A DNA stretch of 64,000 nt from Thalassotalea psychrophila (lineage in GTDB: Bacteria; Pseudomonadota; Gammaproteobacteria; Enterobacterales; Alteromonadaceae): positions 3,100,001 through 3,164,000 of the forward strand of contig NZ_CP134145.1 of NCBI RefSeq assembly GCF_031583595.1, in the 5' to 3' direction. Below the pieces are notes generated by a model, which saw only the letters and a program-made list of their open reading frames with translations, made no database searches and was not told the origin of the DNA. Below, piece after piece: positions 31,439 to 61,780 of the stretch; within the stretch, counting starts at the first letter, position 1; each line of letters opens with the position of its first letter. The translations under genes and the position numbers were made by a program.

Positions 31439-32275
31439 CCAAACTCCCAAACATATTTTTAGTTTTATTTTTGTTTTAACGTGCTGCAATTTACTAAATT
31501 GTTTTTAGTAAATTAAAATTAACTACTTGAAATAGTTAACCAGCCAAACGTTAAAAATTTGTTAACAAATTAATTGTTAGCATCTGAGTGTATGAAATAA
31601 TAAAATTTTATCTAGAACAAAAAGGTATAACGAACATCTCACCCACAGGCCCTAGCAATAAAGGGATGAAACCTTATTCAGATAGCACAAAAAGACAATA
31701 AAAGGTGTTCAGGAAAGCTTGATTAAGGTAGTGGCAATTCAAAAACAAACAATATGGAGTACGTCATTATTTAGTTTAAATGGGTAATTACCCACTTTAT
31801 TGCTTATAAGCATTATTTCTAAGTATTTTAAATAACTGCAGTTAGTTGGAATAAATGTCCAACTATATTTGTTAAACTTTGAAGGATGTTTTAAAGAAAT
31901 GAATTATAAATGAGTGATTACGAATATTTGAAGGTAAAACGTCCGAGGTTTAACAGAATTATGAGGAGATTTAATGCAAAAAAAGGCAAATTTACAGTAA
32001 GCCCATAGGCACTTATTCAGCCTTAAAAAAACAAAAAAAGAGGAACTCAAGCGACATCAGGTAGCCATTGATCGTATTGTGAATATAAAGAATATCTGTT
32101 TCCAGAACTAGTATCAGGATCTATATTCAATGTGTCAAAGGTGCCAGAAGAGTCATACGCGATATTAGAAAAAGTACAACGTCATTCCAGCATGTTGTTG
32201 GCTGGAAGCTCCTCCAGTTTCAAAGTGGCTGAATCCGGTTGATTTGTGCCATTTGCTGCCATACGATTAGTTAAC
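31439..32275. other. Gene-poor stretch with a REP-like hairpin and a possible coding remnant
   Basis: Mostly AT-rich sequence. A hairpin TTCCAGC / GCTGGAA at 32185-32207 is preceded by CGTCA, the outline of a REP-type element. On the minus strand, 32047-32184 reads as about 45 codons without a start, ending YSLYSQYDQWLPDVA and a TGA; it may be a gene tail cut off by the hairpin element. The M6 promoter should be near 31480-31600. Nothing else recognisable. Confidence 0.5.
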
Positions 32276-32590
32276 TTAATTAAGCTTTGAATTATCCTTC
32301 CAGACTTTATAAGTGCACTCTGGAAGATTGTCCCTATCAACTTTATCCATTACCAAAATATTGCACCCTAGTCCTTCAGAAAAACCAGATACATCACCTC
32401 CTTCTGCACGATACCAACAATCACATTGCTGATTTTCAGTATATAAGTAATCTATTATTATGTCTGGCTCTATGATGGTTCGCTGGTCACCTGTTGTTGC
32501 TTTCGTTAAAGCAACTATAAAGATAAGCAATACGACTATCGCAGCAAAAATTACTAGAGAAAATTTAAAAATGGGTAAATTTATTTGCAT
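32276..32590 (-). CDS. Small membrane-anchored protein of unknown function
   Basis: I do not recognise this 104-residue protein. Residues 8-28 form one hydrophobic helix (FKFSLVIFAAIVVLLIFIVAL). The rest is polar with a Cys-x-Cys-Trp (CDCW) and two further Cys (LGCNILV, ECTYKVW), consistent with a periplasmic disulfide-bonded domain. A copy of the GAGCGA element ends 28 bases upstream of the start. No clear ribosome-binding site. It is the only minus-strand gene of the small-gene cluster. Confidence 0.6.
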   Translation of the reverse strand: MQINLPIFKFSLVIFAAIVVLLIFIVALTKATTGDQRTIIEPDIIIDYLYTENQQCDCWYRAEGGDVSGFSEGLGCNILVMDKVDRDNLPECTYKVWKDNSKLN

Positions 32591-32779
32591 AAAATATTGA
32601 AAGTTGATGGTCTCTTAATCGCTCAAAGCCGCCATAGAGCAGCTTTAAATATTTGTAAATATACAATACATGATGTTATTGTAAAATAACAAGTTTTTAG
32701 TAATCGTCCCCGATCACTCAGAGCGGTTAATTATCGTTGTTATTTTATAGAGTCAGAGGATATATCGAGCTTATTAAAT

Positions 32780-33181
32780 ATGAAAAATTCAGAAATTAGC
32801 CAGTTCATTCACGAATATTGTAGAGCCTTCCGTCCAGGTAATATTAATGAAATAATAAAGTATTTTCATTATCCGACGACCATGCTAGTCAACGGAATGA
32901 ACTTACATGTTGCAAGCTCTGTTGAGCTGGAACCTTTACTAAGCAGTGGGCTTTCTGATATGAAATCTAAAGGTTTTTCATATAGTAAAATTCAAGATTT
33001 ATATATCCATAGCTTGTCGGAAAAGATTGCCATTGTTAGTGCAAGTTACATACGATTCAAATCCGACGATACTGCACTCGAAGAAATTGCTGCTACGTAC
33101 ACTATTTTTAACGATTCTGAATTAGGGTGTGGGATAGTAACTATTATTGCCCATGAATTAGATAAAGTGATAGGTAAGTAA
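32780..33181 (+). CDS. NTF2-like fold protein of unknown function
   Basis: A 133-residue soluble protein without signal peptide. The pattern ISQFIHEYCRAFRPGNINEIIKYFHYPTT..., a central helix, then strands with IAIVSASYIRFKSD and TYTIFNDSELG fits the SnoaL/NTF2-like fold (DUF4440-like), seen in many small ligand-binding or catalytic proteins. The fold assignment rests on pattern only. A GAGCGG variant of the local repeat lies 53 bases upstream. Confidence 0.6.
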   Translation: MKNSEISQFIHEYCRAFRPGNINEIIKYFHYPTTMLVNGMNLHVASSVELEPLLSSGLSDMKSKGFSYSKIQDLYIHSLSEKIAIVSASYIRFKSDDTALEEIAATYTIFNDSELGCGIVTIIAHELDKVIGK

Positions 33182-33272
33182 TATAATCAAACTTTCACAG
33201 GCTGCTATGAGCGATAAGCTGCCATTGCTTGCTTAAAAATAAATACACTTGTTAGTGTCTAAGGAAAGACTT

Positions 33273-33695
33273 TTGAATATTCTTCAAAAAATACAAAACA
33301 ATAATTTTACCAACCCTATTAGTAGTATCATATTTGCATTATTTAGCATCTGGGTAGCTATACAGCTAGCAGGTTTTTTAGGCAGCATTGAAATGCCATT
33401 TAATACCTCTGGTCTTTCAATACTTGGTGTCGCGATACAAGATATTATTGTTTTGGGCACTCCGTATTTTTTATTATTTAGTGCTTTAACAATTATTGGT
33501 TTCAAGTATCTTATTAAACCTACAAAATTGTCTGTTATATTATTCTTGTTAATTGTTACGCTTCCATGCTTACTATTAATGAAAGTTTCATACAATAGTT
33601 CTAATTACTACCTCTTCGTTAATGATTCTTTACCTATCATCGGGGTGATTTTGGGGCTTTATATATTAAAAACTAAAACTTTAAAGAACTTGTAG
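33273..33695 (+). CDS. Small multi-pass membrane protein of unknown function
   Basis: A 140-residue protein with four hydrophobic segments (around residues 15-35, 45-75, 85-103 and 115-130 counted from this start). I place the start at TTG 33273, which follows AAGGA by 8 bases; an in-frame TTG at 33249 has no such site. No family recognised. The body between 33248 and 33272 is probably leader. Confidence 0.55.
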   Translation: MNILQKIQNNNFTNPISSIIFALFSIWVAIQLAGFLGSIEMPFNTSGLSILGVAIQDIIVLGTPYFLLFSALTIIGFKYLIKPTKLSVILFLLIVTLPCLLLMKVSYNSSNYYLFVNDSLPIIGVILGLYILKTKTLKNL

Positions 33696-33755
33696 TAATT
33701 GGCAGCTTTGAGCGAATAACAGCCAGTGAAGTCCACTAAAAAACAAGGATAGTCA

Positions 33756-34283
33756 GTGAATATAGAAGTAAACCTAACGGAAGAAGACTTTGTTCAATTT
33801 AATAAATATGCGTTGAAAAAAGTTCTTTCATCAAAAACCACGACAATTCTATGCTTACTTCAAAATATAGCATCGGGTGCAGTCTTTGGATTGGTCGTTA
33901 TGACTATATTTAAGATGCTTGAAGGTAAGTCGCATAGCATGTGGAATACAGCCTTATTTTCGGTGGCGACATTATTTTTTCTTTATTTAATAATAATAAA
34001 GGTTCAGCAGGCAATCTATATGAAGAAGATGCTACCTAATAAAGATGGATTGGTATTGGGAAGTAAAAAAATAGAGCTGTTAGAAAATGGAATTAAAGAA
34101 GAGTCGCAGCTTGGATATAACTTCTACAATTGGAAAGCTGTAGTATCAATTGAAGAAGACAAAAATACAGTATATGTATTCTTAGACAAAGCTATAGCTT
34201 TGATTTTTCCAAACTCTAGCTTTTCATCAGAAGAAGAAAAATTAGACTTTTTAACAACGATACAGAATTTTAGCGTTAAATAA
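33756..34283 (+). CDS. YcxB-like membrane protein
   Basis: A 175-residue protein starting at GTG with AAGGA 6 bases upstream. Two membrane helices (residues 28-52 and 65-85) are followed by a cytosolic domain with the pattern KIELLENGIKEESQLGYNFYNWKAVVSIEEDKNTVYVFLDKAIALIFP. That is the YcxB-like C-terminal domain found in many Bacillus and gammaproteobacterial proteins of unknown role. The GAGCGA element lies 40 bases upstream. Confidence 0.65.
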   Translation: MNIEVNLTEEDFVQFNKYALKKVLSSKTTTILCLLQNIASGAVFGLVVMTIFKMLEGKSHSMWNTALFSVATLFFLYLIIIKVQQAIYMKKMLPNKDGLVLGSKKIELLENGIKEESQLGYNFYNWKAVVSIEEDKNTVYVFLDKAIALIFPNSSFSSEEEKLDFLTTIQNFSVK

Positions 34284-34361
34284 TATCGCTTTATGACAGG
34301 CTCTTATGAGCGATGAACGGACACTGCCTAGTTGGTGGTTGGATTAATAAAGGGATATGTT

Positions 34362-34652
34362 ATGAGCAATGAATTAAGTAAATCAAGTACGGGAAATGAA
34401 ATAAGTAAACTTAAAATCATTCTCTCCTTTTTAATAGCATTTGGGATAGAAATTTATTTTTTTCCTCTATTTTTTATAGAAAACAACACGCCACTAATGA
34501 TGATTCCTTTCATTATACTAATGCTTTTCACTTTTCCTGTTATGTACTTAATATTCATAAAGAAAAAGGTTAAAATTGCAATAATCACCACTTTAGTAGG
34601 AGCTATTCTTGCCTATATATCGATTCATTTTTCAGTTTCTTATTATTCTTAA
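34362..34652 (+). CDS. Small membrane protein of unknown function
   Basis: A 96-residue protein with three hydrophobic segments. I use the ATG at 34362 (MSNELSKSSTGNE), preceded by AAAGGG, instead of an upstream non-ATG start that would extend it by 10 residues into the repeat-derived leader. No family recognised. Confidence 0.55.
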   Translation: MSNELSKSSTGNEISKLKIILSFLIAFGIEIYFFPLFFIENNTPLMMIPFIILMLFTFPVMYLIFIKKKVKIAIITTLVGAILAYISIHFSVSYYS

Positions 34653-34854
34653 GTAGATTTATGAAAATGAACGGCTCCGAAGAGCGAGAAGCGACCGTTT
34701 GAACACTCAAATAACTTAGAAAAAATCCACTTCCTTCATATATCTGTTATTAGATAAAAAATTAATAACAAATCAACATACATTCAATAGACTCGAAGCT
34801 AAAAGTGGTTATTCTACTAAGAGCGATTAACAGACCATCAATAAAAAGGATTTA

Positions 34855-35172
34855 ATGAATACCGAGGCTAACAAATTAATTGCAAAGCTAAAGCTTCTCT
34901 CTTCTCTTTGGATGATTGGTGGAGGCGTATTTATATTTAGAATTTTTTTCCCAGATATAGAGTATTACGGATATAGATTTTATGTGGTTCAACTAGCTAG
35001 CTTATTTTTTATAATAGGATTCGTAGGATCTTTATGGTTTATCAAGTGCCCTAAATGTAATAAAAAGCTTATTTTTGATTTAATAAACAAAGAGCATAAC
35101 TTGGAATTTCCTACTTGGGAAAATGAGATAAGAAGTCATAAATGTTTTTCAAGAAATAATGATAATTTTTAA
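34855..35172 (+). CDS. Small membrane protein with zinc-ribbon-like tail
   Basis: A 105-residue protein. Two hydrophobic helices (residues 15-33 and 42-62) are followed by CPKC and a late HKC, a possible Cys3His zinc site. AAAGGA lies 7 bases before the ATG, and the GAGCGA element 28 bases before it. Function unknown. Confidence 0.6.
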   Translation: MNTEANKLIAKLKLLSSLWMIGGGVFIFRIFFPDIEYYGYRFYVVQLASLFFIIGFVGSLWFIKCPKCNKKLIFDLINKEHNLEFPTWENEIRSHKCFSRNNDNF

Positions 35173-35238
35173 TCAAACACCTAACGCCTAATAAGAGTGA
35201 ACAGCGGATGTTAACAGTTTCTTAACTTTGGATAATTT

Positions 35239-35646
35239 ATGGCTTTATTTGAAAAAATAATAAACGCAACTTTGTGTAAACTAATTTCAATTTTCTACAT
35301 CATGCAGGCAGTAGGTCTCCTTGGTGTTTTTTACATTACATTTATTAGCTCCCTGCCAACAGAAATAACATTCATAGAAAACTTTAAAGGGATTATGGAA
35401 TATGGGGGTGGGTTACTTTACTTCAAATTCAGCTTTATTTTTCTTAACATTTTTGCAGCTATAGCATTGTTAAAAATAGAAATATTTAACAAATACTTTA
35501 TCTATTTATTGAGTTACTTGTGGTTAATTACTCTATTATATCTTACTGTCTCTGATAATTTTTTCATGTGGATTGCTCCCGCTTTAGCTAGTTTTGAGTT
35601 CTATAAACATAAAAAGTCAGACGAGTATTTAAAGCGAGACTGCTAA
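35239..35646 (+). CDS. Four-helix membrane protein of unknown function
   Basis: A 135-residue protein with four hydrophobic segments spread over its length and a short basic C-terminus (KHKKSDEYLKRDC). A GAGTGA variant of the local element lies 38 bases upstream. No family recognised. It is the last gene of the small-gene cluster. Confidence 0.55.
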   Translation: MALFEKIINATLCKLISIFYIMQAVGLLGVFYITFISSLPTEITFIENFKGIMEYGGGLLYFKFSFIFLNIFAAIALLKIEIFNKYFIYLLSYLWLITLLYLTVSDNFFMWIAPALASFEFYKHKKSDEYLKRDC

Positions 35647-36041
35647 CAATATAGCTTTGTTTTACGAAAATAATGAAGGCATTGGTACAAATAAAGCTGA
35701 TCGGTAAAAGTCTATAAAGTTCTACTTCCGCTTATGGCACAAAGCCGCGAAATAATGGATTCCCGCCTTCGCGGGAATGACGGCGTTTTCCTACTTCCGT
35801 TAATGGCACTTTGCGGACCCACAACATCACTGAAGTAGGTCCCTCATCTCGTTCCACTCGTGGGGGATGACGATACATTTTCTCTACTTCCGCTTATGGC
35901 ACTTTTCTGTTATTCAGGATTTACTTAAATTAAGTCACAGCTGTTGACGGAATAGCCTCTTCTTATCACTTTAGATTAACCCATAAATGGTAATATCATT
36001 TATGGGTTTCTTCTTTTATATGACGGTGTTTTTCAGGCATA
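35647..36041. repeat. Non-coding stretch with REP-like and GGCAC repeats
   Basis: Three direct copies of CTACTTCCGCTTATGGCAC (35722, 35791 with two changes, 35884), each able to pair weakly with a nearby GCGGA. Between them a perfect hairpin ATTCCCGC-CTTC-GCGGGAAT (35759-35778) is followed by GACGG, the REP-type outline also seen near 32185. A second inverted-style segment (ACTCGTGGGGGATGACG) ends near 35870. No gene. Confidence 0.7.
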
Positions 36042-54569: not shown

Positions 54570-54612
54570 TTAAATAAGCCACACTCACATTATTAAAATA
54601 TAGGTGAATAAT

Positions 54613-55860
54613 ATGTCACTAACAGATGCCGCAGTTAAAAATGCTAAACCAGAAGATAAAGCACGAAAATTATCAGATGGTGGTGGCCTATACCTTCTAA
54701 TCAAACCTACAGGTTATAAGAGCTGGAAGTATGACTTCAGGCTCGATAACACCAGAGGTAGTTATACGATTGGTAACTACCCTGATATTGGCTTAAAAAA
54801 AGCAAGACAAGAGCACAGAGAAGCTAGAGAACTTGTAGCATTAGGAACTAACCCGAAGCAAATTAAAGTACAGCGTAAAGTTAAAGATGAACTTAAAAAT
54901 AAACGCTTCAGCTTCTATATAAACCAATGGCTTGATAAGCAGGTATTAGCTACATCAACATACTCAGACTTAAAGCAGCGCATTGATAAGAACATAGCCC
55001 CTTACTTAGATAGTAAATACATCAATGAATATACAACAGCAGATTTACTCGCTGTTATGTTACGCATGAGTAATAGAGGAGCTAAGGAAACAGCAATACG
55101 CTTAGCTAACATTTTAAGACGAGTATTTAATGAAGTTTTAATTTTAGGCATTATTGATACTAACCCTGCACAAGGCTTAGCTGAATTATTACCTAAACCA
55201 GATAAACGGATAGACAAAAACTTCGGGCACGTAACATCAACACAAGATTTAAGAATATTACTACAACAGATTGATTGCCCTACTGCTAATCAAGATATTG
55301 CAGTAACACAAGCATTAAAACTGATGCCACTTGTTTTTTTAAGACCATATAACATTAGGTTTTTAAAATGGGAGTACATAAATTTCAATGAACGTATCAT
55401 TAACATTCCTGCAGAGGAACTCAAAAACAACAAGTATCTAGATGTACCATTATCTAATCAGGCGTTCTCAATATTAAAAGATATGCTACCAGTGACCGGT
55501 GATAAAGAATACGTGTTTGTTACTAGCAGAGGTAAAGATACACCACTTAGCGAGAATACAACTACACAGGCTTTAAAGCGCTTCATAAACCCAGTAACTA
55601 ATGAACCATATGGTTCAGGTTTTATGACTTCTCATGGCTTTAGGCATACAGCTAGTACAATGCTAAATGAGCTAGGCTTCAACCCAGATATTATTGAACT
55701 TCAGTTAGCCCATACGAATAAAGACCGTATCAGAGCTACGTACAACAAAGCTCAATGGATGGAAAAGCGTATTATGATGATGCAAGCTTGGGCTGATTAT
55801 CTTGATGGATTAAAAAACCAAGGGAATGTTACACCTATTAATAAAAGGACTTCTGCTTAA
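54613..55860 (+). CDS. Tyrosine integrase with DUF4102 N-terminus
   Basis: A 415-residue phage/island integrase. Start at ATG 54613, with AGGTG 6 bases upstream; a GTG three codons earlier is the alternative. The N-terminal DUF4102 domain (LTDAAVKNAKPEDKARKLSDGGGLYL) is typical of integrases that target tRNA ends. A SAM-like core-binding domain follows (residues ~100-195). Catalytic residues: Arg244 in FLRPYN, His341 and Arg344 in HGFRH, His367, and Tyr377 in RATYNK. FLRPYN deviates from the usual FLRPGE. The gene lies just inside the left att core, as expected. The next gene overlaps its stop by one base. Confidence 0.93.
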   Translation: MSLTDAAVKNAKPEDKARKLSDGGGLYLLIKPTGYKSWKYDFRLDNTRGSYTIGNYPDIGLKKARQEHREARELVALGTNPKQIKVQRKVKDELKNKRFSFYINQWLDKQVLATSTYSDLKQRIDKNIAPYLDSKYINEYTTADLLAVMLRMSNRGAKETAIRLANILRRVFNEVLILGIIDTNPAQGLAELLPKPDKRIDKNFGHVTSTQDLRILLQQIDCPTANQDIAVTQALKLMPLVFLRPYNIRFLKWEYINFNERIINIPAEELKNNKYLDVPLSNQAFSILKDMLPVTGDKEYVFVTSRGKDTPLSENTTTQALKRFINPVTNEPYGSGFMTSHGFRHTASTMLNELGFNPDIIELQLAHTNKDRIRATYNKAQWMEKRIMMMQAWADYLDGLKNQGNVTPINKRTSA

Positions 55861-56639
55861 TGAATAATCAAAGAGTTATACCTGAAAAAATAAAAATTAA
55901 TTTACTCTATGATTACTTAGAACTCTCTGCCATGAATCAAGCTGCAAAACTTGAGGCGTTAATAAGTCATTCTCAAGATGGTGGTTTATTATTTACTTTT
56001 AATCACCCTGTAAGGGCAATTCCGGTTGAAATACCAATAGGCGACTATGACGAAACAGGTGAGTATATACCAACGAGAAATGAAGATATTCAATGCATAT
56101 TTAAACCTAAAAGCTTCACATTAAACAACTATTCCATAGATGAAGAATGTACTCGCATAGGGCAATTTGAAGTAAATGGAGTAGCATTTAATATAATCAA
56201 TAAAGATAAGACTGATTATGGTTTTTATGATGTCGATTTAGCTGATGTTTATGTCAAAAAGTCAGATTTTATTAAATTCGATGGTAAATCAGGTGATAAT
56301 GTACTTTCAGACCTTCCTGTTGATCTTCAACCAACAAGAACTAATAAAGCATGCAAATTAGCACCACGACAAGAGGTGTTAAAACCTTCCTCTCGTGATC
56401 AACGATACGAGTTTCTAAAAGAATGGACTCAGAGAACCTTACCAGGTGTTCCATTTGATAAATTTATAGCTGCCTATGATATAGAGCTGACAAAGGAAAC
56501 ATTTTACAAGCTACTAAGTAATGAATATAAAAAAAATCACCCTAATGATTCGAATATTTTCATCAAAGGAGCTGATGACTTTTACAAAGACAAACGTTTT
56601 ACATTGAAGTTTAAAGAAGGAAGACGTAAAAACAGTTAA
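55860..56639 (+). CDS. Unknown protein translationally coupled to the integrase
   Basis: I do not recognise this 259-residue soluble protein. Its ATG uses the last base of the integrase TAA. The N-terminal half is a beta-rich region (VRAIPVEIPIGDYDETGEYIP, KPKSFTLNNYSIDEECTRIG). The last 75 residues are helical and basic (SRDQRYEFLKEWTQRTLPGVPFDKF..., FTLKFKEGRRKNS), which suggests nucleic-acid or partner binding. Coupling to the integrase suggests a role in recombination control, but this is inference from position. Two operator-like repeats follow it. Confidence 0.65.
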   Translation: MNNQRVIPEKIKINLLYDYLELSAMNQAAKLEALISHSQDGGLLFTFNHPVRAIPVEIPIGDYDETGEYIPTRNEDIQCIFKPKSFTLNNYSIDEECTRIGQFEVNGVAFNIINKDKTDYGFYDVDLADVYVKKSDFIKFDGKSGDNVLSDLPVDLQPTRTNKACKLAPRQEVLKPSSRDQRYEFLKEWTQRTLPGVPFDKFIAAYDIELTKETFYKLLSNEYKKNHPNDSNIFIKGADDFYKDKRFTLKFKEGRRKNS

Positions 56640-56642
56640 TAA

Positions 56643-56725
56643 ATAGTGGTAACAAAAATACCACTATAAAATAAATCCCTAGTAAACATCTAACCATAAA
56701 TAGTGGTATTTCACTTTACCACTAT
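56643..56725 (+). promoter_or_regulatory. Twin operator: two copies of ATAGTGGTA-N7/8-TACCACTAT
   Basis: Perfect 9-bp inverted repeats at 56643-56667 (7-bp spacer) and 56700-56725 (8-bp spacer), with identical arms, about 57 bp apart. They lie 91-173 bp before the AlpA-type gene. Dimeric-regulator sites in a promoter are the simplest reading. Confidence 0.75.
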
Positions 56726-56815
56726 ACCCACATTTTTTTATTCACAAAGTCCCTTTAATATTACTTCAGCTACTGAGTACATAGGTGTTCAGAGTCTATT
56801 TATTAAGGTATTAAA

Positions 56816-57010
56816 ATGAATAAAATCATCCGAATTAAAGAAGTAACTTCACGTACAGGCTTATCAAAATCGTATATTTACGCCTTAGCAAAGGAAGATA
56901 AATTCCCCAAGAGCATCAGGCTAATTAAAGGCGGAGCAGCTGTTGGTTGGCTAGAATCAAGCATAAATGATTGGATTTCTGACTGTATAGCTAATCAAGA
57001 AAATGCTTAA
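56816..57010 (+). CDS. AlpA-family DNA-binding regulator/excisionase
   Basis: A 64-residue winged-HTH protein: IRIKEVTSRTGLSKSYIYALAKEDKFPKSIRL then GWLESSINDWI is the AlpA pattern (MerR-like fold). AlpA proteins activate integrase genes or act as excisionases in P4-like elements and islands. AAGG lies 8 bases before the ATG. Confidence 0.88.
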   Translation: MNKIIRIKEVTSRTGLSKSYIYALAKEDKFPKSIRLIKGGAAVGWLESSINDWISDCIANQENA

Positions 57011-57306
57011 CAATGATGCATTACCAGTAGCTTAACTACGTGTACAGGTGAAGTCATACTTGTACTAGAAGTTACTGCCAGATGTACCCGTAGTTGTCGG
57101 TCTGGCAGTCAATACTGTCGTTCAATTTTCGAACAAAGGAGTGCATAACACAACTAGGTAATATTAATAGTAGTGTTATGCACCTTGAAGTAGTGCATTT
57201 ATGCACTCTAAAAACCGTAAATGTACTACTTACGCACTGAACCATTAAACTTTAGTGCATTAGTAGCGCATAACATTAACCAATTCAATAAGATAAGAGA
57301 ATAAAC
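57011..57306 (+). promoter_or_regulatory. Palindrome-rich leader of the ParB-like gene
   Basis: Three kinds of structure. A hairpin CTGCCAGA / TCTGGCAG (57075-57108) holds TACCCGTAGTT in its loop. GTGCATAACAC (57141-57151) faces its reverse complement GTGTTATGCAC (57173-57183). AGTGCAT-TT-ATGCACT (57192-57207) is a compact palindrome, with further GTGCAT (57255) and GCGCATAAC (57267). Six GTGCAT half-sites in ~130 bp suggest an operator or iteron cluster for an island-encoded protein. Confidence 0.65.
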
Positions 57307-58029
57307 ATGAGAGAAATAAAAGAACTGAAAATTGGTGAAGTTTTTCCAATCAATGAGAAGCTTGCAGGGATTGTCCCAATGGCTATTCCTGTAGAACAGG
57401 AAGCTTTAACAATTAATATAAAAGAGAATGGTTTAAGAGAGTCTGTAGTACTGTGGAGAGGAGATATTGTAGATGGGCGATGCAGACAAAAAGCCTGTAC
57501 ATTAGCACGTGTTGCTGTAAGAGCTAAATACCTAGATGACGATCTTACTGAAGAAGATGTGTCTACATTCGTCAAATCTGTAAACACAAGAAGAAATCTT
57601 ACAACAGCTCAAAAGATAATGGTGGCGAGTAAAGAATCATTTAGAGAAGGTTCTAAGTCTTTAACCGATATAGCTAAATCATGGGCTATAGGTAGAAGGA
57701 CACTTACTATGGCTAACTACATGTCCAAAGCTAGACCTGAATTTATAGAACCGTTGTTGAATGGCTTAACAGTTCATATTGTTGATGCTAAAGGTAACCA
57801 AGCACAGACTAATAAAATTTCAGCTATTTACGCTCACATCAAACGAGAAGAAGAGGATGTTACAGAAGTACCAAGTCATGAGTGGAGTGCTAATGAAAAT
57901 ATCCATACACAAGCTGGACGTGACTGGTTTTATGAGTTTATTAAAGAGACTGGTACAACTAATGTAAAAGTAATGATGGAGTTAGTCGTTAGAGCAAATG
58001 ACAAGTTCAAAGATGACAACACACAGTAA
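57307..58029 (+). CDS. ParB/sulfiredoxin-like domain protein
   Basis: A 240-residue protein. The N-terminal ParB-like domain is visible as LTINIKENGLRESVVLWRGDIVDGRCRQKA (residues 38-67). The middle part reads like the ParB HTH linker (LTTAQKIMVASKESF, SLTDIAKSWAIGRRTLTMANYM, a helix-turn-helix). The C-terminus is acidic and unrecognised. Free-standing ParB-like proteins of islands act as regulators, nucleases or partition-type DNA binders. No ParA partner is present, so partition is unlikely. Confidence 0.8.
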   Translation: MREIKELKIGEVFPINEKLAGIVPMAIPVEQEALTINIKENGLRESVVLWRGDIVDGRCRQKACTLARVAVRAKYLDDDLTEEDVSTFVKSVNTRRNLTTAQKIMVASKESFREGSKSLTDIAKSWAIGRRTLTMANYMSKARPEFIEPLLNGLTVHIVDAKGNQAQTNKISAIYAHIKREEEDVTEVPSHEWSANENIHTQAGRDWFYEFIKETGTTNVKVMMELVVRANDKFKDDNTQ

Positions 58030-58667: not shown

Positions 58668-58692
58668 TTGGCTCTATTAGCGTTAATTGTTG
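58668..58692. repeat. Left copy of the 25/26-bp inverted repeat
   Basis: Contains GGCTCTATTAGCGTTAATTG; its reverse complement, with one extra A, lies at 60629-60654. An overlapping hairpin AGCCAAAT / ATTTGGCT ends inside it. Confidence 0.85.
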
Positions 58693-58853
58693 ATCTATAA
58701 ATCCAGCAGTCAAACACCCTGCTATTGTTAATTGACAAAGTGAGGAATATCAGTAGGATAAACTTAAGTCAGCGGACGGTTAACTTCCGCTTTGAGCGAA
58801 CAGCAGTCGTAGACAACTCTGAAATATTAAAAAAATATGGATATACCTTGGCA

Positions 58854-59144
58854 ATGAAAAAATCAGTTTGGATTAAAAGGTTTATTGCTATATTGGTTTT
58901 ATCAATAGTAGGTTATTTTCTATTTCTACATGCAGCAATGAGTTCTGATATGGCACCAGAGTTAGCATGGTATTATCAACTAGAAATGTTTGTAGCTGGT
59001 CTGTTTTGGTGGCCTGCCTCTATATACCTTGGCTTAAGAAAACTTATTGACCCAAGTTATGGTATGTTGGGATTTGAATTATGGTTGTTCCAATTTTTAG
59101 GGTACTTCGCAATGTTCAAACTATACGATAAATATAAAAATTAA
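58854..59144 (+). CDS. Small membrane protein of unknown function (island)
   Basis: A 97-residue protein with three hydrophobic segments (FIAILVLSIVGYFLF, LFWWPASIYLGL, LFQFLGYFAMF). I start at the ATG at 58854; the frame is open to 58725, but that part covers the GAGCGA repeat. No family recognised. Confidence 0.55.
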   Translation: MKKSVWIKRFIAILVLSIVGYFLFLHAAMSSDMAPELAWYYQLEMFVAGLFWWPASIYLGLRKLIDPSYGMLGFELWLFQFLGYFAMFKLYDKYKN

Positions 59145-59193
59145 CTCGGTCTCTTATGAGCGAGCAGCGGTCGTTGGCAACATTAGTAAATAT

Positions 59194-59469
59194 ATGAATA
59201 AGCAAGAATCAAAACTAACTCAGTGGGCTATTGAATTTTTGTGGCTAGCTATTCCGTTTGGAGTATATATTGAGTCTAAAAGCTATATTTACCTTTTCAT
59301 GCTGCCTTTATGTTTGTCATGTGTGATTTTTGGTAGGCTAAAAATTAGAGCTAAATCCGATGCAATTATTGAGCATGAAAAAATAATTAAATACTCGAAG
59401 TATGAATGGCAGTCTGGTTTTATGGTTTTTGTACTGACTGCTGGGATTTATATCTTTAATATGATTTAA
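59194..59469 (+). CDS. Small membrane protein of unknown function (island)
   Basis: A 91-residue protein with three hydrophobic segments separated by a basic loop (GRLKIRAKSDAIIEHEKIIKY). No strong ribosome-binding site. A GAGCGA element ends about 30 bases upstream. It is followed 86 bp later by the Rieske-like gene. Confidence 0.5.
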   Translation: MNKQESKLTQWAIEFLWLAIPFGVYIESKSYIYLFMLPLCLSCVIFGRLKIRAKSDAIIEHEKIIKYSKYEWQSGFMVFVLTAGIYIFNMI

Positions 59470-59554
59470 GATGTTGACCTTAGTATTTCTAATATCAAGG
59501 TCGGCAAAGAGCGATATATAGTCATTCACAATGATTAAAATACATAAAGGATTT

Positions 59555-60532
59555 ATGAAATATTTAACCTATATTTGTTTGATTTTCTGTTTGGCAGTTA
59601 ATGCAAATGAGAAAAGCGATTTAGAAATAAATTTAGCAAAATTAACTGAAGGAAGTCATTTAAGGGTTGAGTGGTATGGGTTACCTGTTCTTATTCTTAA
59701 GCCTAGCAAAATTCAACTAAATTCAATAAATGACAATGAAATTAATCTATCAACGAGCCAACTAGATACCGCTTTTCAATATTTTGCCAAGACCAGCGGC
59801 AATATAAAAGCTAGCATATTGTATGACTCTACGATTTCGGCATACGAAGAAGAGTTGGCAGTAAATCCTTATCCATTGATAGTGCTACTTGGCATTAACC
59901 CTATTGGAGGGTGCGCTATTAGCGCAAGTAATCAAAGAAATTATTTGAAAGATCCATGTAGGCAGTCTACTTATTCGCTAGATGGGAGAATGAGCGATTC
60001 AAATGGCTCGCTTCCTGCGAATCTCTTTATACCGCCTTTTTCAGTGGTTGATGATACTTTAATAATTAAAGCTCCAGAGTTAGTTAACTTTAAAGATTTT
60101 TCTCCTGATATAATGGCAATGAATGTGCCAAATAAAACTAAATTTTGGGATTCTATTTCTTGGGATAAGTTAGATGTTCTAAAGGAGTTAGTTAGTAAAG
60201 ATGCTGCATTACTAACTGCTAAAACGAGTGTAAATTGCAATGCTTTACATGTCGCTTCAGGAAAGTCACCTGAGCTACTTAGCTATTTAATTAGTAAAGG
60301 GGTTTCCACTACTCACATTTGTGATAACGGGTACACTTCTCTAATGATTTCTCTCATGACTAGGGATATTCAAAATGCAAAGATATTACTGGCACATGGT
60401 GCGAAAATAGACGCTTATTGCGAGAATGATAACTGTGCTAAATCGCTCAAAGATTACTTATATTCAGATCTTAGGTATACGGCAGAATATACGGAAAAGT
60501 TAATTGAATCCCTAAAAAAAGAAAACAACTGA
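59555..60532 (+). CDS. Exported protein: Rieske-like domain without Fe-S ligands, plus ankyrin repeats
   Basis: A 325-residue protein starting at ATG 59555 (AAAGG five bases upstream). Residues 1-20 are a Sec signal ending VNA. Residues 25-170 follow the bc1 Rieske subunit: GSHLRVEWYGLPVLILK matches the VkWrGkPV strand, NPYPLIVLLGIN the strand before the first ligand loop, and YSLDGRM...LPANLFIPPFSVVDDTLIIK the CPCHGSxYD...NLxVPPY end. The ligand loops read N115-P-I-G-G-C120 for CTHLGC, and D133-P-C135-R136 for CPCH. So all four Fe-S ligands are replaced, while the two disulfide Cys remain. Residues 190-300 form about three ankyrin repeats (NALHVASGKSPELLSYLISKG, TSLMISLMTRDIQNAKILLAHGA). Confidence 0.7.
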   Translation: MKYLTYICLIFCLAVNANEKSDLEINLAKLTEGSHLRVEWYGLPVLILKPSKIQLNSINDNEINLSTSQLDTAFQYFAKTSGNIKASILYDSTISAYEEELAVNPYPLIVLLGINPIGGCAISASNQRNYLKDPCRQSTYSLDGRMSDSNGSLPANLFIPPFSVVDDTLIIKAPELVNFKDFSPDIMAMNVPNKTKFWDSISWDKLDVLKELVSKDAALLTAKTSVNCNALHVASGKSPELLSYLISKGVSTTHICDNGYTSLMISLMTRDIQNAKILLAHGAKIDAYCENDNCAKSLKDYLYSDLRYTAEYTEKLIESLKKENN

Positions 60533-60628
60533 CCGACAGCTAATGGCACTTAAGAGACGGATGAGGATCAACGGGTTTACTACCAAGAAAAGTCATTTTT
60601 ACATCATGGCGACTATATAGTCAGTCAC

Positions 60629-60654
60629 CAACAATTAACGCTAATTAGAGCCAA
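60629..60654. repeat. Right copy of the 25/26-bp inverted repeat
   Basis: CAACAATTAACGCTAATTAG followed by AGCCAA; the reverse complement of 58668-58692 with one extra base. Together the copies bracket a 1.96-kb block with three genes. Confidence 0.85.
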
Positions 60655-60846: not shown

Positions 60847-60957
60847 AACTAACGCCCTGTTAAGGGACAAATTGTAGTTGGCTAAAATTGTGAACGGAGT
60901 GAAACAGCCAACTGTTTTTTGTCCTTGTTTAATTTCTTGTTTAATTTCTTGTTAGGT
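60847..60957 (-). other. attC site 1 (integron-type cassette recombination site)
   Basis: Read on the minus strand it starts ACCTAAC (60957-60951) and ends GTTAGTT (60853-60847). Internal complementary arms are AGTTGGCT / AGCCAACT and GGACAAA / TTTGTCC. The stop codon of the cassette gene overlaps the first box. Size 111 bp. Layout and sequence match chromosomal-integron attC sites. Confidence 0.85.
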
Positions 60958-61659
60958 CTCTTTACTCTTAAGTAAATAAGAAAACAGACCTTCTATACTT
61001 CCTGCCTGCAATAGTATTTTTGGAAATACTTGCATAAAAACCCCAGAGGATTCATAAAAATCAGTAACAATATTAAATACCACTTTTGCATTTAAATACT
61101 GGATTGTATTTAGCTGTAGTAAAGCATCTGAATTACGATGAGCTATAATATTATTTCTTTCAAAGCGGAGTTGTTTAGCCGCCTTTTCTCTAGATTTACG
61201 CAACAACTTTAACGAGTTAAATAATTCTTTCTGTAGCTTTTCTTCTACGGAAGACTGAATAAGTAGCTCCTTCAAATTTTTACTATTCGCCTTACTCATA
61301 TCCCATTCATAGATAGTGAGTAAAATAATCCTTAAGGAAAGTAACCTTTTCCATTCGTCATGGTGTGTAAGAGCATCAATTTTAACAGTTTGGATGTCTT
61401 TTTCAGCAATGAGAAAGAACAAGCCTAAATTCATTAAGATTTGTACGCACTCATTTTCACTATTTCGTGCTCTGACTATTTCTTTTTTAAACGTCTTCAA
61501 AGTATCAGTTAAAACACGATTTTTCTTCCTTTCCTTGATAGACAGCGACACTCTAGAATAAAAACGAGTAACACTCATAAAGTACTTACTGTACTTTATT
61601 TGAAAATATCTTGTTCTCACCGAAAGAGGTGCTTCTGCGATACTTTCATATTTAGGCAT
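60952..61659 (-). CDS. Cassette-encoded helical protein with HEPN-like motif
   Basis: A 235-residue mostly helical protein. I start at ATG 61659 (AAAGGA 9 bases upstream), since an upstream ATG at 61701 lies inside attC2. No membrane helix or signal. Near the C-terminus R168-N-N-I-I-A-H174 followed by RNSDALL has the R-x4-6-H form of HEPN ribonucleases and resembles AbiU2-type 'RNxxxAHR' segments. Cassette-borne HEPN proteins often act in toxin-antitoxin or phage defence. This is motif-level evidence only. The gene occupies nearly all of its cassette and ends within attC1. Confidence 0.6.
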   Translation of the reverse strand: MPKYESIAEAPLSVRTRYFQIKYSKYFMSVTRFYSRVSLSIKERKKNRVLTDTLKTFKKEIVRARNSENECVQILMNLGLFFLIAEKDIQTVKIDALTHHDEWKRLLSLRIILLTIYEWDMSKANSKNLKELLIQSSVEEKLQKELFNSLKLLRKSREKAAKQLRFERNNIIAHRNSDALLQLNTIQYLNAKVVFNIVTDFYESSGVFMQVFPKILLQAGSIEGLFSYLLKSKET

Positions 61660-61677: not shown

Positions 61678-61780
61678 ACCTAACGCCCACTTAAGGGGCA
61701 AAATAGAGTTGGCTTAAATAAGTGAACGTAGTGAGCAAAAAGCCAACTGTTTTTTGTCCTTATTAATTAGCTTGTTAGGC
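61678..61780 (-). other. attC site 2
   Basis: 103 bp. On the minus strand it runs from GCCTAAC (61780-61774) to GTTAGGT (61684-61678). It shares AAGGACAAAAAACAGTTGGC with attC1 and has the same complementary arms (AGTTGGCT / AGCCAACT). The stop of the next gene overlaps its first box. Confidence 0.87.

Follow-up and report, generated by a model that had tools for sequence, protein, structure and literature searches.

Paired repeats around small genes of Thalassotalea psychrophila: probable recombination sites of a two-site gene-cassette system

Introduction

Two unrelated clusters of small genes lie in a 64,000-nucleotide stretch of the Thalassotalea psychrophila chromosome (NZ_CP134145.1, positions 3,100,001 to 3,164,000; hereafter the window), and they raise the question of why the same short repeat, centred on GAGCGA, precedes gene after gene in both. 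The initial annotation, made from the sequence alone, saw in this repeat either the boundary of an undescribed gene cassette or mobilization unit, or a post-transcriptional control element shared by unrelated genes. Here, we compared the repeats and their surroundings within this genome, among relatives, and across plasmids, phages and more distant bacteria. The repeats are very probably DNA recombination sites of a two-site gene-cassette system, a reading that we draw from sequence comparison.

Results

Two types of site flank the small genes

All copies named in the initial annotation were present in the window, giving eleven cores when one decayed copy, spotted by eye and not picked up by the pattern scan, is included. 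Every small gene in both clusters was preceded on its 5′ side by one copy, and that of the minus-strand gene lay in minus orientation, as had been described; after the copy at 34673–34696, the next site follows without an intervening gene. The hexamer GAGCGA by itself was weakly enriched in the window (20 occurrences against 12.75 expected, a count reached by 4 of 100 shuffles). The element as a whole stood far above chance: GNCNGCTTTGAGCGANNAGCNGNC, searched with up to two mismatches, matched 13 times in this 4.8-Mb genome, compared with 0 matches for the reversed control.

Structurally, the element consists of inverted arms (GNCNGCTNN) around an asymmetric 6-bp core. Its best-conserved part in related loci comprises 24 bases, G.C.GCTTT-GAGCGA-NNAGC.G.C (67 copies); outside this part, an A stands three bases before in 79% and a T three bases after in 71% of these copies. 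A second type of site, absent from the initial annotation, has the same arms and the core GTGCCA; it is inverted relative to the first and is found where a gene or array ends on its 3′ side. We refer to sites with core GAGCGA, located 5′ of genes, as type A, and to the inverted GTGCCA sites as type B. The simplest unit is that of the minus-strand gene at 32276–32590, which runs from B at 32237 through the gene to A at 32610.

Homologous blocks end at the site cores

We compared by blastn the two window arrays and 20 site-bearing regions from seven relatives and this genome. Among the 236 alignments, which are not independent where they involve related copies, 152 of the 471 internal ends had a site centre no more than 15 nt away in each of the two partners, a proximity that a random position reaches in 2.2% of cases for one partner. 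Two blocks of the window recur within the same chromosome. The first, 32619–33214, carries the NTF2-like gene and reappears at 3.90 Mb over 596 bp with 97.65% identity, both of its ends lying within 2 nt of a site centre. The second, 32237–32624, reappears at 3.718 Mb (locus L078) over 388 bp with 99.5% identity; the core, the right arm and the gene belonging to the B site at 32237 recur there, and its left side is different. Read base by base, identity in both blocks runs through the cores, TCGCTC (A, reverse) and TTTGTGCCA (B), with divergence beyond; the A site of the L078 copy, below the reach of the site scan, was recognized in this way. These blocks bear out the proposed cassette boundary and contradict the case named in advance as refuting it, namely that genes never move together with their element.

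The arms, in turn, followed their own flanks. In 89 site pairs sharing the upstream flank only, left arms were 79% identical and right arms 56%, compared with 59% for either arm in 2580 unrelated pairs; in the seven pairs sharing the downstream flank only, the means were 87% for the right arm and 73% for the left, with right arms 89–100% alike in five (the site pairs in this comparison are not independent). Watson–Crick pairing between the arms showed no excess over randomly dealt arms, either for A (344 of 603 vs. 346.1, standard deviation 8.8) or for B (140 of 279 vs. 144.5, standard deviation 5.5). When G-U pairs and more outer positions were counted, a slight excess appeared, matched by 22 of 500 shuffles. 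A crossover within the core fits these observations, and selection for an RNA hairpin is not needed.

Sites in phage P2 and Escherichia coli prophages

In phage P2 (NC_001895), fun(Z) is bracketed by an A site (3 mismatches) and an inverted B site (2 mismatches) with the same cores as in the window, a cargo flanked like that of the window arrays. Because the accessible part of a review (PMC8987985) credits the inverted repeats around P2 fun to Nilsson et al. 2004, this instance has been known since 2004, and the word undescribed in the initial annotation does not hold for it.

In two Escherichia coli records, the A site of a P2-like prophage has tail sheath and tail-fibre assembly genes on either side; its core is GAGCCA in the second record. 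A 701-base query spanning the A site matched 1670 of 5426 E. coli genomes, six of them over 80% of the query length. Among 60 matches listed evenly, one was the query itself and 33 ended at query positions 295–308 (site at 282–305); another 17 ended at position 180, 16 of them annotated with a recombinase family protein, and 9 ended elsewhere. The mirror query across B matched 1256 E. coli genomes; among the 60 matches listed, 34 started at positions 325–346 (site at 331–354), 25 started further in and one was the query. Direct comparison of 11 loci revealed the left half-site in 10 and the exact core GAGCGA in 6. The cargo at this locus is annotated as DUF3800, Shedu, S1 peptidase, SIR2, protein kinase or hypothetical, and, like plasmid cargo, it is transcribed in either direction. 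The recombinase family protein after the tail sheath was rejected as a candidate enzyme: the one locus examined has neither A nor B sites and resembles a tail-fibre invertase region. For cos-adjacent loci, the accessible text of a 2022 hotspot paper proposes cos ends, speculatively.

Distribution of sites among genomes

With up to two mismatches, the element had at least one copy in all 15 genomes of the genus and was rarer across the family; 24 genomes of other families gave 5 matches vs. 5 in the control. A sequence model of the A site (R1, trained on 54 A sites, of which this genome supplied 14, with 150 candidates scored per genome) gave 28 matches in this genome at expectation values (E) up to 0.5, 8–46 matches in each of 11 genus genomes, some being training sites, and 0–2 in each of seven genomes from other families. 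The corresponding B-site model (24 B sites, 7 from this genome) gave 14 matches here at E under 0.05.

A pattern of the arms with the core left free yielded at least 120 loci in 84,980 species genomes, about 4 being estimated by chance. A relaxed rescan of 163 loci, comprising these 120 and 43 viral ones, each chosen for one site, detected 462 sites vs. 13 in base-shuffled sequence, and two or more sites in 114 of the 163. The core types among the matches listed were TGGCAC (33), GGGTCG (28), TGACCC (18), TGGCCG (16), GAGCGA (15), GGGTGG (11) and others. Neighbouring sites often carried unlike cores in pairs that recur by lineage (GAGCGA with GTGCCA, CGACCC with CGGCCA, TGACCC with several partners), and like pairs occurred too. 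Thus, the arms are conserved and the cores lineage-specific across many Pseudomonadota. Loose blastn searches at E up to 10, chance matches included, found the 30-base site in 1261 of 72,556 plasmid records and the A site in 353 of 5426 E. coli genomes.

Adjacent sites less than 100 bp apart (loci L091–L253) fell into narrow spacing classes near 35, 40, 46, 59, 82 and 93 bp. These classes follow lineages, so we dropped them as a meaningful signal and build no claim on them.

A candidate recombinase linked to the sites

A short tyrosine recombinase was first noticed adjoining a site in a Sphingomonas locus. Its relatives are about 200 aa long, and PF00589 extends from about residue 20–48 to 182–197, being found in all four sequences scanned. 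All 16 sequences chosen for comparison, of which six are near-identical, carry R49, K77, H146, R149, H172 and Y181; we take these residues to be the R-K-H-R-H-Y catalytic set of tyrosine recombinases, which the candidate carries by this sequence test. No catalytic-domain-only group was seen in the accessible part of a survey of tyrosine recombinases (PMC8138268).

Thirty loci encoding homologs held 25 sites of score 14 or more, distributed over 14 loci, vs. 4 in shuffled sequence; as controls, 37 loci of other tyrosine recombinases held one site, and ten integrase loci of this genome one. Within 100 nt after the stop codon, a site scoring at least 14 was present in 8 of the 30 loci (0.07 expected), and one scoring at least 12 in 17 (2.9 expected). 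Four named plasmids, from Pantoea, Lelliottia, E. coli and Kosakonia, together with locus L354 and E. coli A1_181, share the order inverted A, 39 nt, recombinase, 18 nt, B. Across the enterobacterial records examined, B lay 18 nt after the gene in seven of seven and A 39 nt before it in six; in the seventh, E. coli Nissle, B is at 18 nt and the A core has an inner arm one base shorter. Five records placed side by side had nearly identical inner arms and flanks and diverged after each core.

As a query, the recombinase module matched 881 of 5426 E. coli genomes, 714 of them over 80% of its length. Among 30 matches listed evenly, 24 started at query positions 76–78, where the A core begins at 77, and 27 ended at 766–778, where the B core ends at 766. 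With its homology bounded by the cores, the recombinase gene looks like one of the modules. In genome G016, too, the gene is flanked by A and B, which stand further away, and most of the stretch on a Pantoea plasmid (L383) consists of alternating connectors and cargo.

No copy of the candidate was detected in this genome, where the best match was a phage-type integrase (E 3.9e-7); the window arrays therefore look orphan. Two intact copies were present in the genus, both in genome G012; those in G003, G006, G010 and G011 were broken or partial. Among the recurrent families of the 163 site-bearing loci, no recombinase family occurred in more than five, and those five were viral. A 188-aa tyrosine recombinase of this genome (L085) was set aside: it had a strong match here only among 39 genomes and no adjoining A or B site. 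The genome also encodes a gamma-mobile-trio integrase, GmtZ (709 bits, G000:C1 near 2572952, locus L090).

Weighing of alternative explanations

Several observations count against recombination sites served by this tyrosine recombinase. Right arms were just 67% alike in two of the seven pairs sharing the downstream flank only; 26 of the 60 listed A-query matches and 25 of the 60 listed B-query matches had no break at the sites; and the right half-site was found in 8 of the 11 prophage loci, with the exact core TGGCAC in 5. At the level of the enzyme, the 100 nt following the gene lacked a site scoring at least 14 in 22 of the 30 recombinase loci, and most of the genus has either no such recombinase or a broken one. 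Of the two G012 copies, L371 had no adjoining A or B site in the site scan, and L379 is flanked by A on both sides rather than by A and B. Furthermore, eight serine recombinase loci held 3 sites (1 when shuffled), and a site was found no further than 250 nt from 4 of 13 small serine recombinase genes of the genus (L318, L322, L323 and L324), or from five if a weak match in L326 is counted; these genes may be cargo, neighbours or helpers. All the evidence, moreover, is comparative.

The two serine counts would speak for units moved by a small serine recombinase of the resolvase/invertase type. However, the array-side serine genes formed no group of their own by phmmer scores, serine seeds matched no open reading frame (ORF) in the 120 non-viral site loci, and PF00239 was without a match in G003, G004, G007 and G008, though G004 has 46 A matches. 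The overlap of a serine recombinase is 2 bp, and the cores are conserved over 6 bp, beyond what such an overlap needs. We consider this alternative very improbable.

Cassettes resembling dif modules, moved by the host XerC/XerD, would have the same plan. In the accessible text of PMC13141974, dif (pdif) modules of Acinetobacter plasmids have inverted arms, a 6-bp spacer and two alternating kinds of module, which lie between inverse sites and swap on a spacer match. Inverse sites with matching 6-bp spacers were found around the A/B cargo as well, but Xer arms and a XerC/XerD host were not: the A/B arms (GNCNGCTNN), compared by eye, are unlike the pdif arms printed there, and none of 15 genus genomes rose above the XerD cut-off, against 12 of 14 other genomes searched. 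Scores below the cut-off in G013 (229 bits), G002 (228), G012 (195) and G011 (177) may reflect a diverged Xer protein in those genomes; the best XerD-profile match in this genome, at 88.7 bits, is the integron integrase. The A/B system further differs in having two recurrent core types per lineage and a linked recombinase of another kind, and an origin as dif-like modules is very improbable.

An RNA leader or post-transcriptional signal common to the unrelated genes would suit an element that lies shortly before start codons, forms an imperfect hairpin and shows a slight pairing excess once G-U pairs are counted. Against it stand the missing Watson–Crick excess, the DNA blocks that end at the core, the second, inverted site type in the unit, and the cargo of the P2 locus and plasmids, which is read in either direction; at Rfam gathering thresholds, the window yielded one tRNA and nothing else. 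Core-to-core blocks argue against a leader as the sole function, and an additional leader role may exist. Of the two readings in the initial annotation, the cassette boundary is supported, while a shared leader as the main function is highly improbable.

Finally, that the IntI integron integrase of this genome (TIGR02249, 458.7 bits, G000:C1 4773225) uses A and B as secondary sites is scarcely credible despite the attC-like sequences adjoining array 2, given that no attC-like boxes were seen by eye at the crossover, that sites occur in phage P2 and are common in groups where integrons are rare, and that a different recombinase is linked to them. The arrays have sites of 24–30 bp rather than an attC at the 3′ end of each gene, and attC-like sequences were found by eye only outside them, near 60849 and 61681. 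These two sequences (minus strand, 60849–60965 and 61681–61780), beside array 2, have TAACGCCC..TTAAGGG ends and a long inverted repeat.

Features of the two arrays

The sites, cargo genes and connector of both arrays are compiled in Table 1. In addition, a perfect 17-bp inverted repeat (58676–58692 and 60629–60645), with related sequence beyond, brackets the second array, and a phage-type integrase with its neighbours (54604–58029), perhaps another mobile element, lies shortly before it.

Table 1 Sites, cargo genes and connector of the two arrays in window coordinates.
Feature	Position	Strand	Evidence
B site (GTGCCA), 3′ end of minus-strand gene	32237..32260	+	site scan
Cargo gene, 104 aa, no Pfam family	32276..32590	-	
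A site, core GAGCGA 32619-32624, block boundary	32610..32633	-	scan and block comparison
Connector between divergent A sites, akin to stretches adjoining A sites in L067, L079, L080	32634..32711		
Decayed A site, core GAGCGG at 32721; connector homology stops about 32725	32712..32735	+	by eye
Cargo gene, NTF2-like DUF6841	32780..33181	+	Pfam
A site, core from 33209	33200..33223	+	scan, sequence model, block comparison
Cargo gene, 148 aa, no Pfam family	33249..33695	+	
A site, core from 33710	33701..33724	+	scan, sequence model
Cargo gene, YcxB-like	33756..34283	+	Pfam
A site, core from 34308	34299..34322	+	scan
Cargo gene, likely ATG 34362, no Pfam family	34332..34652	+	
A site, diverged, core from 34682	34673..34696	+	scan
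A site, diverged, core from 34821	34812..34835	+	scan
Cargo gene, 105 aa, no Pfam family	34855..35172	+	
A site, variant core GAGTGA from 35195	35186..35209	+	scan
Cargo gene, 135 aa, no Pfam family	35239..35646	+	
B site closing array 1	35726..35749	-	scan, sequence model
Further B site, diverged, five mismatches	35795..35818	-	scan
Possible third B site, one half only	about 35888..35911	-	
A site, core from 58794	58785..58808	+	scan, sequence model
Cargo gene, likely ATG 58837 (ORF 58725-59144)	58837..59144	+	
A site, core from 59158	59149..59172	+	scan, sequence model
Cargo gene, 91 aa, no Pfam family	59194..59469	+	
A site, diverged arms, core from 59509	59500..59523	+	
Cargo gene, ankyrin repeats	59531..60532	+	Pfam
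B site closing array 2, four mismatches	60535..60558	-	scan

Discussion

Comparison of the aligned loci places the block ends at the cores, ties the arms to their own flanks and puts the two core types at opposite ends. From such comparisons we infer both the crossover chemistry and the identity of the enzyme, the latter from its linkage to sites and its conserved, presumed catalytic residues. In the mechanism that we propose, cargo would be bounded by A and inverted B, or by two consecutive A sites, and crossovers in the core, joining A to A and B to B, would swap cargo between connectors, or add or remove single A-gene units. The enzyme would be the nearly catalytic-domain-only tyrosine recombinase of about 200 aa, whose own gene is placed as a connector between A and B in other bacteria. 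The arrays of this genome would be served in trans or have been served in the past; they are probably orphan cassettes, like attC clusters without an integrase.

Integrons and orphan attC clusters have in common with this system arrays of mostly unrelated small genes, a recombinase that sometimes adjoins the site, and the existence of orphan arrays. In contrast, the A/B system has short sites with inverted arms, two site types, a site at both ends of the cargo and a recombinase with little beyond its catalytic domain. The shufflon repeat on which Rci acts in IncI2 plasmids begins, in the accessible part of its description, with GTGCCAAT, like the B core and the bases that follow; the remainder of that repeat differs, and it sorts pilV ends, so the likeness to B may be chance.

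We therefore consider it reasonably likely, with less assurance than for the sites themselves, that the repeats belong to a gene-cassette system of a third kind, alongside integrons and dif modules. Two recurrent, lineage-specific cores would act as keyed left and right ends, any cargo would be replaceable, and a dedicated, nearly catalytic-domain-only tyrosine recombinase would itself be a module. Such a system would shuffle small orphan and defence genes among the chromosomes, plasmids and temperate phages of Pseudomonadota, with the P2-like fun(Z) locus as one station. Beyond the repeats already known at P2 fun, our analysis adds many-cassette arrays, lineage-specific core pairs and a linked recombinase; we recognized no description of the whole system in the accessible literature, most subscription papers being outside reach.

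If this holds true, widespread single-gene exchange would gain a mechanism as well as a sequence marker by which genomes can be scanned, and the presence of unrelated cargo at one spot between the tail genes of P2-like phages would be accounted for. It would also give a likely role to an abundant protein annotated merely as 'site-specific integrase'.

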